From: Erythrobacter sp. BLCC-B19
Lineage (GTDB): Bacteria > Pseudomonadota > Alphaproteobacteria > Sphingomonadales > Sphingomonadaceae
Assembly (NCBI RefSeq): GCF_028621955.1
Contig: NZ_CP117516.1
Coordinates: 496,001-560,000 of the forward strand
Length of the DNA: 64,000 nucleotides
Reading direction: 5' to 3'
Positions within the stretch are counted from its first letter, which is position 1. Each line of letters starts with the position of its first letter. Both the position numbers and the translations under genes were made by a program. The notes below the pieces were generated by a model that did not search any database, was not told the DNA's origin, and was given only the letters and a program-made list of their open reading frames with translations. Positions 1,080 through 50,925 of the stretch are shown here, piece after piece.

Positions 1080-1985
1080 GTGACCAAGTCAAAAGCCTCG
1101 TCGATGCCGGCGTTGAGCGGTGAGCAGAGCCTCAACCGCTATCTCGCCGAAATCCGCAAGTTCCCGGTGCTGACCGCCGAGCAGGAATATATGCTCGCCA
1201 AGCGCTATCAGGAACACGAAGACCCTGAGGCCGCCGCCCAGCTCGTCTCCAGCCACCTGCGGCTCGTCGCGAAGATCGCGATGGGGTACCGCGGCTATGG
1301 CCTGCCCGTCGCCGACCTCATTTCGGAAGGCAACGTGGGCCTGATGCAGGGCGTCAAGAAGTTCGAACCCGATCGCGGCTTCCGCCTCGCGACCTACGCG
1401 ATGTGGTGGATCAAGGCCTCGATCCAGGAGTATATCCTGCGTTCGTGGAGCCTCGTGAAGATGGGCACCACCGCCGCGCAGAAGAAGCTGTTCTTCAACC
1501 TGCGCCGGATGAAGAAGAACCTCGATGCCTATGAAGACACCGATCTTCACCCCGACGATGTGACCAAGATCGCGACCGACCTCGGCGTGCCCGAGCAGGA
1601 AGTGGTCAACATGAACCGCCGGATGATGATGGGCGGCGACGGCTCGCTCAACACCCCGATGCGCGGGGGCGAGGAAGGCTCGGGCGAATGGCAGGACTGG
1701 CTGACGGATGACCGTCCGCTGCAGGACGAAACCGTCGCCGAGGCGGAGGAATCGCAGCTGCGCATGGAAATGCTCGGCGAGGCGATGAACAGCCTCAACG
1801 AGCGTGAGCGTCACATCCTCACCGAACGCCGGTTGACCGACAAGCCCCAGACGCTGGAAGAACTCAGCCAGGAATACGACGTCAGCCGCGAACGCATCCG
1901 CCAGATCGAGGTGCGCGCTTTCGAAAAGCTGCAAAAGGCAATGCAGCGGATCGCGGGCGAACGGCTGCTGCCGGGGATCGCCTGA
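1080..1985 (+). CDS. rpoH: RNA polymerase sigma-32 factor (heat shock)
   Basis: 301 residues, usual length for alphaproteobacterial RpoH. Sigma region 2 is clear (RLATYAMWWIKASIQEYILR, about residues 105-125), followed by the RpoH-box stretch around QKKLFFNLRR that distinguishes this family from RpoD. Region 4 has the helix-turn-helix VSRERIRQIEVRAFEKLQ from about residue 268. The start is a GTG with AGAAAGG about 13 bases upstream; no ATG start fits better. RpoH directs RNA polymerase to heat-shock promoters such as those of chaperones and ClpXP, and clpX, clpP and tig lie 7-13 kb away. Alphaproteobacteria often carry two rpoH paralogues, so this could be rpoH1 or rpoH2. A strong hairpin follows the stop. 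Confidence 0.95.
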   Translation: MTKSKASSMPALSGEQSLNRYLAEIRKFPVLTAEQEYMLAKRYQEHEDPEAAAQLVSSHLRLVAKIAMGYRGYGLPVADLISEGNVGLMQGVKKFEPDRGFRLATYAMWWIKASIQEYILRSWSLVKMGTTAAQKKLFFNLRRMKKNLDAYEDTDLHPDDVTKIATDLGVPEQEVVNMNRRMMMGGDGSLNTPMRGGEEGSGEWQDWLTDDRPLQDETVAEAEESQLRMEMLGEAMNSLNERERHILTERRLTDKPQTLEELSQEYDVSRERIRQIEVRAFEKLQKAMQRIAGERLLPGIA

Positions 1986-2056: not shown

Positions 2057-2281
2057 GGTTTTGCGCAGCTTGTGACCGTGCGTGGCGCGCTGCGCATGGT
2101 GGTGACGCGGGTTGGCCGCTGTTGGACGCGGCGCATCACGCCCTTTCGCCCCAAGCCGGTTGCAGGGCCGTGGCCGATTGTGCAGGCATCACCTAAGCTA
2201 TTGCAAAATAGACGCTAAAAGTCAGGGCTAGGGCTAGGTCGTCGCGCCATCCCGCCCAGCCGCTTCCAACACAAATCCAAC

Positions 2282-2320
2282 AAAAAGGGGCGCTGCGATG
2301 GTTCGCAGCGCCCCTTTTTT
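2282..2320. terminator. Bidirectional hairpin terminator
   Basis: A 16-bp perfect stem: A5-GGGGCGCTGCG on the left pairs with CGCAGCGCCCC-T5 on the right around the loop ATGGTT. The A tract on one side and the T tract on the other make it usable on both strands. It sits downstream of the leftward M20 hydrolase gene and is the last barrier between it and rpoH. The rest of the gap between 1986 and 2370 contains no convincing gene; the only other feature I see is the parS palindrome. Confidence 0.85.
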
Positions 2321-2334
2321 CACATCGCGGGACT

Positions 2335-2360
2335 GTCAATGTTTCACGTGGAACATTGAC
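2335..2360. promoter_or_regulatory. parS: parS-type centromere site (ParB binding)
   Basis: The 16-mer at 2340-2355 reads TGTTTCACGTGGAACA, whose reverse complement TGTTCCACGTGAAACA is the canonical chromosomal parS bound by ParB/Spo0J. Symmetry extends to 26 bases with a single mismatched pair (12 of 13 half-site positions agree). It lies 11 bases beyond the stop of the leftward M20 hydrolase gene and 15 bases from the hairpin terminator, so it is intergenic. Chromosomal parS sites generally cluster near the replication origin, which suggests, as an inference, that this window is origin-proximal. No parB gene is in the window. I read the other CACGTG occurrences and none has the parS flanks. 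Confidence 0.88.
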
Positions 2361-2370
2361 CGAACATGGC

Positions 2371-3708
2371 TCAGCGCTTCTTCTTCGTCCCCGCCAGATC
2401 GAGCACGGCTGCCACCATCGCGCGGGTGCCGGTGATGACGCTTTCGCGCGGGGCGATCTGGAACAGCGGGGAGTGGTGCCCGGCAATCGGCGGCCCGCCG
2501 GCCTTGGCCGCTGCCATCCGCTCCGGCGTGGTGCCGCCGACCGCGAAGTAATAGCCCGGCACGCCCAGCCCTTCGGTGACGAAATAGGTGAAGTCCTCCG
2601 CGCCCATGTTCTGCTGGACGAAGGGCACGAAAGCATCGCCGCCCAATTCGCGCGCCATCACCGCGTTGAGCCGCCGGGCGAGCGCGGGGTCGTTATTGGT
2701 GACGGGGGTGCCTTCGAGCACCTTGACCACCACCGGGCGATTGTCGGGCAACCCGTTGGCCTTGCCGATATTGACCGCAATCCGCTCGATCGCAGCGATC
2801 ACCTGCGCGCGGGTTTCCTCGTCATTGGCGCGCACCGTGACTTGCAGCTTGGCCTCGTCAGAGATGATATTGTGCTTGGAGCCGGCGTGGAAGCTGCCGA
2901 CGGTCACCACCACCGGCTTCAGCGGTGAAATCTCCCGCGAATCAATGGATTGCAGCGCAGTCACGATCTGCGAGGCGATGTAGACCGGGTCCTTGCCGAG
3001 ATGCGGCGCCGCCCCGTGGGTGCCGACGCCGGGCACGATGATGTCGATCGAATCCGAGCTGGAATACTGGATCCCTTCCGAGGCCGAGACCTTGCCCGTC
3101 TCAAGATCAGCCGCAACGTGAAAGGCGAGCGCATAGTCGGGCTTGCCGAAGCGTTCATAAAGCCCGTCCGCCATCATCGCCTTGGCCCCGCCGACGCGTT
3201 CCTCGGCGGGCTGGACGATGAACATCAGCGTGCCCTTCCACTGGCCCTTCATCGCCGCCAGCCGCCGCGCGGTGGCGACCATCGCGGTGATGTGCACATC
3301 ATGCCCGCAGGCGTGCATCACCGGATATTCCTTGCCGTCCTGCCCGGTCTGCACCGCCTTGGAGGCATAGGCGAGGCCGGTCTTCTCCTCGACCGGCAGC
3401 CCGTCCATGTCGGCGCGCAGCAGGATCAGCGGGCCATCGCCGTTCTTGAGGATGCCGACCACCCCGGTGCCGCCCACGCCTTCGGTGACGGTCAGGCCCG
3501 CCGCGCGCAGCTCGGTCGCCATTTTCGCGGCGGTGCGGTTTTCGAGGTAGGAAAGTTCCGGGTTCTGGTGGAAATCGAGGAACAGCGGGGCGAGGTAATT
3601 GTCATATTCGGCCTCGATCGCGGCCTTGGTCGCCGGGTCTTCGGCCAGGGCAGGCTGGGCAGCGGCGACAAGCGCGATGGCGCTGGCGGCGAGGTGGAAC
3701 AGGCGCAT
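2371..3708 (-). CDS. Secreted M20-family amidohydrolase / peptidase
   Basis: 445 residues. The start at 3708 is chosen over an upstream in-frame codon because it begins a good signal peptide (MRLFHLAASAIALVAAAQPALA) and has GGGGAGA about 7 bases upstream. The mature part has the M20D layout: HACGHDVH near residue 131, the PAEERVGGA glutamate motif, and a late GAEDFTYF plus HHSPLF, giving the expected two-metal ligands. Relatives hydrolyse N-acyl amino acids, hippurate or indole-3-acetyl conjugates; the substrate cannot be told here. Periplasmic location is inferred from the signal peptide. It is monocistronic, reads toward rpoH and ends at the parS site and a strong terminator. Confidence 0.88.
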   Translation of the reverse strand: MRLFHLAASAIALVAAAQPALAEDPATKAAIEAEYDNYLAPLFLDFHQNPELSYLENRTAAKMATELRAAGLTVTEGVGGTGVVGILKNGDGPLILLRADMDGLPVEEKTGLAYASKAVQTGQDGKEYPVMHACGHDVHITAMVATARRLAAMKGQWKGTLMFIVQPAEERVGGAKAMMADGLYERFGKPDYALAFHVAADLETGKVSASEGIQYSSSDSIDIIVPGVGTHGAAPHLGKDPVYIASQIVTALQSIDSREISPLKPVVVTVGSFHAGSKHNIISDEAKLQVTVRANDEETRAQVIAAIERIAVNIGKANGLPDNRPVVVKVLEGTPVTNNDPALARRLNAVMARELGGDAFVPFVQQNMGAEDFTYFVTEGLGVPGYYFAVGGTTPERMAAAKAGGPPIAGHHSPLFQIAPRESVITGTRAMVAAVLDLAGTKKKR

Positions 3709-3811
3709 TTGTGGTCTCCCCTGATAGTATGACACCACGCTAACCGCGCATGGCCCTGCCCCGCAAGCGCCGATGCTTCACGCCAAGGATTTGCTGCGCT
3801 AGAGCCGTGCC

Positions 3812-48939: not shown

Positions 48940-49401
48940 ATGGCTCGCACCAGCAATCTTTCGCGCCCGATCATTGAGGCGCTCTACACCGAAGCGCTCG
49001 TTCTGGCGGACGAGGTGCGCGCCGTGTTTGCTGCGGGTGTGCGCGAACCGATGGTCGGGGAAGACGCCTTCGTGCGCCTCGCGCTTTCGACCGAAGGCCT
49101 CAAGACCACCACGCGGATGATGCACGTGCTGGCCTGGCTGCTCAACCAGCGCGCGCTGTTTTCCGGCGAGCTTTCGGAAAATCAGGTGCGTCTGCATGGC
49201 GCGCTGCCGCCTGACCGGGCGTCGGACGAGGCGCAGCTGGCGCTGCTTGAACCGGAAACCCGCGAACTGATCGCCGATACCGAAAAGCTGCACCAGCGCA
49301 TTGCCCGGCTCGACGAGGCATGGCGCGCACATTTCGACATGGCCTCACCCGTGCGCGCGTTTCAGGATCGCATCGGACGGGAATTCGGCCGGTTCGGATA
49401 A
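48940..49401 (+). CDS. DUF1465 family protein (RcdA-like)
   Basis: 153 residues, all helical, with ALYTEALVLADEVR, LSTEGLKTTTRMMHVLAWLLNQRALFSGELS and EAWRAHFDMASPVRAFQDRIGREF. This is the DUF1465 family; I recall that it includes Caulobacter RcdA, the adaptor that helps ClpXP degrade CtrA at the start of S phase. clpX and clpP are also in this window, about 38 kb away. Orthology to RcdA is family-level inference. The ATG follows CCCGCTCC with no strong ribosome site. Confidence 0.78.
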   Translation: MARTSNLSRPIIEALYTEALVLADEVRAVFAAGVREPMVGEDAFVRLALSTEGLKTTTRMMHVLAWLLNQRALFSGELSENQVRLHGALPPDRASDEAQLALLEPETRELIADTEKLHQRIARLDEAWRAHFDMASPVRAFQDRIGREFGRFG

Positions 49402-49452
49402 TAGGCCAGCGCGGGTGGCGCAGGCCCGTCCCGCACCGCCCCGCCTAGACAA

Positions 49453-50925
49453 TCACGCCGCCGCGAGCGCCTTGCGCCAGGCCGCCAGCCGCGTCTCGCG
49501 CACGTCATCAGCCATCGCCGGTTCAAAGGTCGCCAGCCGCCCGCGCATGGCCTGTGCGGCGCTCGCCAGATCGGGATAGAGCCCCGCCCCCGCGGCCGCC
49601 AGCATCGCCGCGCCGAGCGCCGTGGTCTCGACAAAACCGGGGCGCTCGACCCTCACCCCCAGCACGTCGGCCAAGTCCTGCGCCATCCAGTCATTGGCTG
49701 CCATGCCGCCGTCGATGCGGAGCGTCTGCCACGGCGCGCCGTCGGCGGTGAAGGCGGCGCACAGGTCGTGGGTCTGGTGCGCCATCGCCTCCAGCGCGGC
49801 GCGGGCGAGATGGGCCTTGCCGCTCGCAAAGCTCAATCCTGCGATCACCCCGCGCGCCTCCGCCTGCCAGTGCGGCGCACCGAGGCCCGACAGGGCGGGA
49901 ACGATCACCACCCCGCCGCTATCGGGGATCGAGCGGGCGAGCGCTTCGGTCTCCGAGGCGACCTCGACGATCCCGAGCGAATCGCGCAGCCACTGAACGA
50001 GGCTCCCGGCGACGAAAACCGAACCTTCGATGGCATAGGTGCGCTGGCCCTCGATCTGGGTCAGCACCGTGCCGAGCAGGCGGTTCTGCGAACGCGGGAT
50101 GCGGCTGCCCTGACAGGTCAGCACGAAGGCGCCGGTGCCATAGGTCGCCTTGGTCTGCCCCGGCGCAAGACACGCCTGCCCGATGGTCGCCGCCTGCTGG
50201 TCGCCCGCAAGGCCGGTGATCGGAATGGCGCGGCCGAACAGATCGGGCGCGGTCATCGCGAGCGGACCGGAGCAATCGACCACCCCCGGCAGCGCGGCCA
50301 GCGGCACGCCGAGCAAGTCGCACAGCCCCTCGTCGAACTGCGCGTCTTCCAGCCCCATCAGGAGCGTGCGGCTGGCGTTGCTGGCATCGGTGATATGCGC
50401 CGCCCCGCCGGTCAGCTTGAAGGTCAGCCAGCTTTCCACCGTCCCGAAGGCGAGCGTGCCCTTGTCCGCCGCCGCGCGCACATCGGGCACATTGTCGAGC
50501 ATCCAGCGCATCTTGGTGCCCGAGAAATAGGGATCGAGCAGCAACCCGGTGCGCGCCTGGACGCCGGCTTCGTGGTGCGCGGCGCGCAGCTCGGCGCAGA
50601 AGGGCTCGGTGCGGCGATCCTGCCAGACGATCGCGTTGGTCAGCGGCTCGCCGGTCGAGCGATCCCACGCCACCACGGTTTCGCGCTGGTTGGTTATGCC
50701 GATGCAGGCAATGCTCGCCGCCCCTCCCGCCTTGGGGATCACCTCCAGCGCGCAGGCGAGGGTCTTGTCCCAGATCTCGCGCGGATCATGCTCGACCCAG
50801 CCGCTTTGGGGATAGTGCTGCGTCAGCGGCGCCTGCGCGCTGGCGACCAGCACGCCGTCGGAGGCGAACAGCATCGCGCGGGTGGACGTCGTGCCTTCGT
50901 CGAGCACCAGAATATAGTCAGACAT
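49453..50925 (-). CDS. glpK: Glycerol kinase
   Basis: 490 residues, the family length. It phosphorylates glycerol to glycerol-3-phosphate. FGGY-kinase motifs are present: LVLDEGTTSTRAMLF at the N-terminus, NQRETVVAWDRSTGEPL, and GLAGDQQAATIGQACLAPGQTKATYGTGAF in the middle. The start at 50925 has GAGAGGGAT 6 bases upstream. No glycerol facilitator or glpD is adjacent, so it stands alone. It is divergent from the MBL hydrolase gene, with only 56 bases between starts. Confidence 0.97.
   Translation of the reverse strand: MSDYILVLDEGTTSTRAMLFASDGVLVASAQAPLTQHYPQSGWVEHDPREIWDKTLACALEVIPKAGGAASIACIGITNQRETVVAWDRSTGEPLTNAIVWQDRRTEPFCAELRAAHHEAGVQARTGLLLDPYFSGTKMRWMLDNVPDVRAAADKGTLAFGTVESWLTFKLTGGAAHITDASNASRTLLMGLEDAQFDEGLCDLLGVPLAALPGVVDCSGPLAMTAPDLFGRAIPITGLAGDQQAATIGQACLAPGQTKATYGTGAFVLTCQGSRIPRSQNRLLGTVLTQIEGQRTYAIEGSVFVAGSLVQWLRDSLGIVEVASETEALARSIPDSGGVVIVPALSGLGAPHWQAEARGVIAGLSFASGKAHLARAALEAMAHQTHDLCAAFTADGAPWQTLRIDGGMAANDWMAQDLADVLGVRVERPGFVETTALGAAMLAAAGAGLYPDLASAAQAMRGRLATFEPAMADDVRETRLAAWRKALAAA

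Follow-up and report, generated by a model that had tools for sequence, protein, structure and literature searches.

What is an exact copy of the chromosomal parS site doing next to rpoH, in a stretch of DNA that holds no parAB genes? The window, i.e., the whole stretch analysed, has a length of 64 kb and corresponds to positions 496,001-560,000 of the single 3,607,050-bp contig of Erythrobacter sp. BLCC-B19 (G000). The parS-type core lies at 2340..2355, reading TGTTTCACGTGGAACA on the plus strand and TGTTCCACGTGAAACA on the minus strand. The minus strand is identical to the parS consensus TGTTNCACGTGAAACA with zero mismatches, which agrees with the first-pass annotation, where this 16-mer was called canonical parS. 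It is the sole place in the 64 kb with three or fewer mismatches to the consensus (the two rows obtained are the two strands of one site), while shuffled windows gave a mean of 0.47 matches at this threshold and reached two matches in 12 of 100 cases. An exact match is expected about 1e-4 times per 64 kb on two strands, given 15 fixed bases and equal base frequencies.

The core is the centre of a 26-bp inverted repeat (2335..2360, GTCAATGTTTCACGTGGAACATTGAC). The symmetry had been described as running on to 26 bases; its extent was confirmed, but one position pair, core positions 5/12, is unpaired, and with 12 of 13 pairs the repeat is near-perfect and not a perfect palindrome. A GAAC half-site on the plus strand (2362..2365) starts 7 bp outside the core, at 11 bp, or one helical turn, from the inner half-site. 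The site is intergenic, as previously noted, and is placed between two convergent genes: rpoH, encoding sigma-32 (1080..1985, plus strand, NCBIfam TIGR02392), on the left and an amidohydrolase gene (2371..3738, minus strand, TIGR01891) on the right. Between rpoH and the site, a G+C-rich hairpin with a T-run was read directly from the letters (2281..2319, plus strand), and by its appearance it is probably the rpoH terminator. Another convergent intergenic gap of the window (49396..49488) carries a parS in the sister genomes G003 and G022; in the window no parS was found there, the best match within 450 bp having five mismatches.

The search of the whole contig revealed 34 exact TGTTNCACGTGNAACA sites versus 0 for the reversed control pattern, and 40 versus 9 when up to two mismatches were allowed. 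Among the near-miss sites, one has exactly one mismatch and five have two. Eight of the 34 sites are clustered in the mnmE-mnmG-rsmG-parAB region (1,230,251-1,235,031), one of them just before mnmE and the rest inside or between mnmE, mnmG and rsmG, while 26 are dispersed. The cluster adjoins a ParA-like ORF and parB; MnmE, MnmG, RsmG and ParB were assigned by NCBIfam. The single ParB-family match of the genome is located at 1,235,906-1,236,865, in accordance with the earlier statement that parAB is absent from the window. The ParA-like ORF just upstream of it (L018:7134-7910) was identified by visual inspection of its translation; no NCBIfam match was obtained for it at 1e-30. The exact consensus, the 34 genomic sites against none for the control and the ParB beside the parS cluster give good support, at the level of sequence, to a genuine parS-type site, whose cognate ParB (family match) and ParA-like ORF are encoded in the same genome.

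The first-pass annotation had also taken the site as a mark of an origin-proximal region, and this claim was contradicted. The distance between parB and the window's site is 738 kb, i.e., 41% of half the chromosome (replichore), and the site lies outside the origin domain of chromosomal parS, the 20% of the chromosome round oriC (here 10% on each side of parAB, with the origin placed by parAB and sampled skew). Of 39 sampled stretches of the chromosome, 17 lie between 2.98 Mb and 0.95 Mb (passing through zero), and 12 of these had a negative GC skew; 19 of the 22 between 1.10 and 2.90 Mb had a positive one. The sign changes of the sampled skew are therefore found near parAB (about 1.0-1.2 Mb) and at around 2.95 Mb, elsewhere than near the window, which locates the origin close to parAB and the terminus at around 2.95 Mb. 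An origin near the window was rejected on the position of parAB, the parS cluster and the skew. The dnaA gene (G000:C1:658400-659758) lies about 577 kb from parB, away from the skew change, and an origin near it (658 kb) was rejected because there is no lasting skew change there.

Inside the origin domain there are 15 of the 34 sites of G000 (seven of the 26 dispersed) and 21 of the 56 sites of G022; 19 and 35 sites, respectively, lie outside. The distances of dispersed sites from parAB fit a uniform distribution in both genomes (KS p 0.61 for the 26 sites of G000 and 0.55 for the 48 of G022). Regular spacing of the sites was weak (P 0.23 in G000 and 0.03 in G022), and the figure for G003 is unreliable because the length used leaves one of its 35 sites outside. 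A Noc-like avoidance of the terminus was rejected, since the sites are not depleted towards it.

The comparison of 24 genomes with an rpoH match showed that the exact site downstream of rpoH is kept in six (G000, G022, G016, G001, G007 and G011), all of which are rich in parS. The parS-rich genomes G003, G010 and G014 have no exact rpoH-linked site within the stretch seen (209 bp in G010), and G014 carries a one-mismatch copy about 1 kb downstream of rpoH. The absence of the site is uncertain in G013 and G017, whose contigs stop at the end of rpoH or shortly beyond it. In the stretch seen, the parS-poor genomes all lack an rpoH-linked site. A pond MAG (L041) carries the exact site, and Porphyrobacter sp. 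SLTP has a one-mismatch copy at the same place. In all six genomes with the exact site, and in L041, GAAC occurs 7-10 bp outside the core. The same half-site is found at the arms of the dispersed sites, in 7 of 52 arms in G000 (expected 0.20, P 1.5e-9), 4 of 96 in G022 (0.43, P 9e-4) and 2 of 70 in G003 (0.30, P 0.04). At the rpoH locus of G022, G016, G001 and G007, 11-bp repeats are present 79-290 bp upstream of the site, while the rpoH-linked parS of G000 is without such an array and has the phased half-site instead.

The placement of the dispersed sites was analysed in three mapped genomes, with genes called by a simple codon-score script rather than taken from a curated annotation; 43 of the 54 sites of G003 were examined and the other 11 were left out. 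In G000 (n=26), 16 dispersed sites are located between convergent and seven between tandem genes, one is divergent and two are genic. The corresponding numbers are 26, 12, 3 and 6, with one unclear, in G022 (n=48), and 21, 9, 3 and 2 in G003 (n=35). Convergent gaps thus hold 16/24, 26/41 and 21/33 of the intergenic dispersed sites of G000, G022 and G003, compared with a baseline of 14-20% by count; as this baseline was taken from intergenic gaps in the same DNA, some of it sampled in the vicinity of the sites, the test is conservative. A location of parS within terminator stems was rejected: the pairing of arms at convergent sites is better than chance in G000 (P 0.004) but not in G022 (0.08) or G003 (0.33). 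A common function of the neighbouring genes was likewise rejected, as the 18 genes flanking the nine sites shared by all three genomes have no theme. They include polA and genes for a CDC48 ATPase, a guanylate kinase, QueF, an SDR, a P450 and others; three gave no match, two of the 18 having been scanned in both libraries.

Of the 26 dispersed sites of G000, 17 have a neighbouring gene end in common with a site of G022 and 11 with a site of G003. At shared sites, identity is 38-41% in the flanks 5-24 bp from the core and 47-54% over the 4 bp next to it. The 14 fixed positions of the core show no difference (238/238, 154/154 and 322/322), a figure biased by exact-match detection. In 18 site-genome cases, the neighbouring gene end is present in the sister genome and there is no exact site within 450 bp. 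In four of these cases, representing two places (G000 309,536 and one in G003), a copy with one mismatch is present. The other 14 have 4-7 mismatches, like random 450-bp stretches, although some are genic or rearranged and the true counterpart may lie elsewhere.

Most dispersed sites of the sister genomes G022 and G003 are accompanied by arrays of an 11-bp period. Within 160 bp of the dispersed intergenic sites of G022, the word TAGACCCC occurs 84 times towards parS, at 34 of 42 sites (expected 0.11), and in G003 the word CAGACCCC occurs 34 times at 23 of 33 sites (expected 0.1); in the opposite orientation, neither word was found within this distance. At least two AG(A/G)CCC motifs directed towards parS within 100 bp on one side were present at 38/48 dispersed sites of G022, 19/35 of G003 and 0/26 of G000, and arrays on both sides at one site of G022. 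The spacing between consecutive motifs is 11 bp in 82 of 96 steps in G022 and in 20 of 32 in G003. The distance from parS to the start of the last motif is 18 or 29 bp in 26 of 40 arrays of G022, and 18, 29 or 40 bp in 10 of 19 arrays of G003. The arrays of both genomes (e.g., L213, L206 and L205) are polar, C-rich and one-sided and have a species-specific word. A reading of the C-rich word as a Rho site is disfavoured because the arrays in tandem gaps occur in both orientations to transcription.

A test independent of any word, based on 12 of 16 identities at lag 11, detected an array arm at 36/48 sites of G022, 23/35 of G003 and 2/26 of G000, none of them on both sides, and in 4/129, 2/106 and 4/225 control intergenic stretches, respectively. 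Around the dispersed sites of G000, lag 11 was the strongest of lags 5-40 (40 matches; mean 16.4 and maximum 38 in 200 shuffles), lag 22 did not exceed the shuffles (22 matches; maximum 28), and the words enriched towards parS were few (CGGGTTTT at six sites and TTGTCGCG at five). The array signal in the window's own genome is weak. Both tests were negative for arrays at all 24 origin-cluster sites of the three genomes. In intergenic gaps without parS, two motifs on one strand were present in 8/178 cases in G022 and 8/163 in G003, with 11-bp spacing in one and two of them, respectively; the single G022 case adjoins a parS-like sequence that has three mismatches. An array of 11-bp period next to such a three-mismatch sequence at G022 L285:15446-15732 looks like a decaying parS site that still carries its array. 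The arrays set the dispersed sites of G022 and G003 apart from the cluster sites; we conjecture that they may make the dispersed sites harmless or give them another task.

The variable base of the site differs between species. The form TGTTTCACGTGAAACA is found in 25 of 34 sites of G000 and 42 of 43 of G003, while 52 of the 56 sites of G022, including seven of the eight in its cluster, are TGTTCCACGTGGAACA. At the 17 sites shared by G000 and G022, every G022 copy carries C/G. The ParB positions equivalent to Caulobacter 179-180 (by our own alignment) are MM in nine parS-rich genomes and in G047, MH in G022 and (I/L/T)Q in 13 of 13 parS-poor genomes. The recognition helix accordingly reads ...ANMMR... 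in nine of ten rich genomes and G047, ...ANMHR... in G022 and ...AN(I/L/T)QR... in all 13 poor ones. The link suggested between site variant and helix residues is correlative, with a single contrasting species, and these positions follow phylogeny as well. The ParB tree was based on 23 full ParBs from 25 genomes of the genus (the parS-rich G007 and G023 gave none), and its topology showed the ten ParBs of parS-rich genomes on one side of a single branch with 100/100 support. This is compatible with a single origin of the parS-rich state; the other rich genomes are unplaced, save G047, which has the same helix residues.

The ParB of G000 aligns with Caulobacter ParB 6t1f over the N-terminal and DNA-binding parts; it has ordinary motifs, and nothing in it shows a new activity. 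R173 and G201 of Caulobacter ParB contact parS (PMC7383237), and residues of both types are kept in G000 by alignment. The Noc model TIGR04285 scored 197 bits against the G000 ParB, under its cut-off of 315 and about as high as the ParB model. Noc is distinguished by residues of the Q173/K179/K184/R201 type (PMC7383237); the sites described here are parS rather than Noc binding sites (NBS), and in the alignment positions 173 and 201 of the G000 ParB are occupied by R and G, respectively. SMC matches were present in all 22 genomes searched (10 parS-rich and 12 parS-poor), 21 of them over the cut-off; the match in G001 consists of two pieces on different contigs. A loss of SMC as the reason for tolerating extra sites was therefore rejected, and a distributed loading of SMC would be possible.

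At least one exact TGTTYCACGTGRAACA site was present in 39 of 41 genomes (G000 and 40 relatives), and the reversed pattern in none. Across 114 genomes of the genus, 48 have 7-69 exact sites and 66 have 0-5, none has six, and the reversed pattern is absent from all; among the 94 that are at least 90% complete, 40 are parS-rich and 54 parS-poor. A set of 397 genomes of the family (14 of this genus; one match to the reversed pattern in one genome) has 0-4 sites outside the genus in all but eight of the genomes listed: five of the neighbouring genus g104 (13, 9, 13, 6 and 5), G163 (7), G410 (6) and G497 (5). The five g104 genomes searched thus range from 5 to 13 sites, and the sites that were read in one of this genus, G224 (L289, L292, L298 and L301), are all TGTTCCACGTGGAACA; a search of stretch L302 of G224 gave no ParB. 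In 387 genomes of the class, high counts occur in a few unrelated ones (G887 154, G705 79, G691 18, G823 18 and G682 13), with one reversed match each in G705 and G819. Several sites read in G887 (L288, L291, L294, L297 and L300) are embedded in a longer palindrome with similar flanks and are near contig ends, and many of those in G705 (L287, L290, L293, L296 and L299) are in small groups, one with 37-bp spacing; both genomes are possibly independent expansions.

A high number of parS sites is a property of part of the genus, and the close named relatives of RpoH include both Porphyrobacter and Erythrobacter records. Dispersed parS in this group was not found in titles or abstract openings of the literature among the matches listed. 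The first-pass annotation had considered that random scatter of the 16-mer over the genome would speak against the site. The 16-mer is spread over the genome; however, because the dispersed sites are common to sister species, non-randomly placed and confined to part of the genus, the site is not meaningless.

Several explanations of the rpoH-linked site were weighed. A view of the site as an ordinary parS close to the origin, belonging to the classical segregation centromere, agrees with the exact consensus, but the distance from parB, the eight-site cluster with the skew change at about 1.0-1.24 Mb and the 19 of 34 sites outside the origin domain already contradict this reading and leave it hardly any probability. 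A selfish REP- or MITE-like repeat would have the array plus parS as its unit, and ParB binding would be a by-product or a means of persistence. It is favoured by the polarity of array and core, which occur as a unit in either orientation to transcription (6 versus 5 tandem sites in G022), by the lack of near copies at most gene ends without an exact site in a sister genome, and by the similar flanks at several G887 sites, several near contig ends. However, the check for sequence shared beyond the core revealed, by eye in G000, G003 and G022, no long homologous flank, only phased words shared within G022 and within G003. Moreover, 17 of the 26 dispersed sites of G000 have a gene end in common with a G022 site, near-miss copies in G000 are at background (one one-mismatch site against 34 exact), and the switch of the variable base at nearly all G022 sites points to a single reader. 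We therefore consider a selfish origin unlikely.

A bidirectional transcription end signal or insulator, where ParB clamped between convergent genes would be a roadblock for RNA polymerase, accords with the position of about two thirds of the intergenic dispersed sites between convergent genes in three genomes. On the other hand, a third are not convergent, rpoH already has its hairpin and T-run, the arrays are on the strand opposite to the transcript in five of 11 tandem cases in G022, and an avoidance of promoters and coding DNA accounts for the placement equally well; little weight can be given to such a role. The sites could also be read mainly by another DNA-binding protein sharing the parS sequence, a Noc-like ParB paralogue or a regulator, and the arrays, which make the dispersed sites of G022 and G003 more than bare parS, would fit this. 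Nevertheless, G000 has one ParB-family match only, with the R173- and G201-type residues kept, and in G022 the cluster and dispersed sites carry the same changed variant, so that a separate reader also appears very improbable.

The best explanation, to which we assign a probability of about 0.6, is that the rpoH-linked site belongs, with 25 other dispersed ParB loading sites, to a chromosome-wide parS network present in part of the Erythrobacter/Porphyrobacter group. As suggested by sequence, conservation and co-variation, the single ParB of the genome would nucleate at each site. It would close as a CTP clamp and slide into the flanking DNA. The dispersed sites would serve the organisation of the whole chromosome, through distributed ParB/SMC loading or tethering, and the segregation of the origin would be left to the mnmE-parAB cluster. 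The one-sided 11-bp array, or the phased half-site at rpoH, may modify the loading or spreading of ParB in such a way that mid-arm sites are tolerated. Such tolerance must be assumed because mid-arm parS is harmful in Caulobacter (PMC5815017). Counting against the network, the array word differs between species, is weak in G000 and is absent at the window's site, and 15 of the 34 sites of G000 are inside the origin domain. A broader proposal, put forward tentatively and with somewhat less than even confidence, is that this branch of the genus has converted a point centromere to a holocentric-like one, with dozens of ParB loading sites chromosome-wide. Its dispersed sites would form a second class with one-sided, phased, fast-diverging, satellite-like arrays that alter ParB loading or spreading, together with a co-evolved ParB recognition helix.

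Current models of chromosome organisation by ParB and SMC build on the rule of an origin-centred placement of parS and on the harm of mid-arm parS in Caulobacter. A large part of the genus breaks the origin rule and the rest keeps it, which offers a natural comparison of site number, site place and ParB changes. It makes testable why extra parS is tolerated and whether a bacterial centromere can evolve satellite-like accessory repeats with a co-evolving reader.

Plasmid centromeres of the ParR/parC type consist of about 11-bp direct repeats in phase. The phasing is alike here; however, the arrays stand on a single side of an HTH-ParB site and use different words in different species. The Noc sites (NBS) of Bacillus subtilis are scattered round the chromosome (PMC4331003), and Noc is a ParB-family CTPase (PMC8429893). 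The present sites are likewise scattered for a ParB-family protein but, unlike NBS, they have the parS sequence, a ParB with ParB-type residues at two key positions and no depletion towards the terminus. In Pseudomonas aeruginosa, ParB occupancy was described at half-parS away from the origin, at heptamers with narrow peaks (PMC7022226); the GAAC half-site beside the rpoH-linked parS is similar, while the sites here are complete 16-bp ones. The ParABS system of Caulobacter crescentus shares with G000 the 16-bp site and the clustered copies beside parAB. Its cluster consists of seven parS, and a second cluster is tolerated nearby and strongly disfavoured at mid-arm (PMC5815017), whereas in G000 19 of the 34 sites are outside the origin domain. 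Streptomyces coelicolor and Listeria innocua also have many parS copies (20-23), but theirs lie close to the origin (PMC7333895, PMC5815017), and here there are up to 69 in the genus, evenly spread in G000 and G022. As mid-arm parS is disfavoured in Caulobacter (PMC5815017) and the cited high end is 20-23 near-origin sites (PMC7333895), an even spread of tens of sites is unexpected.
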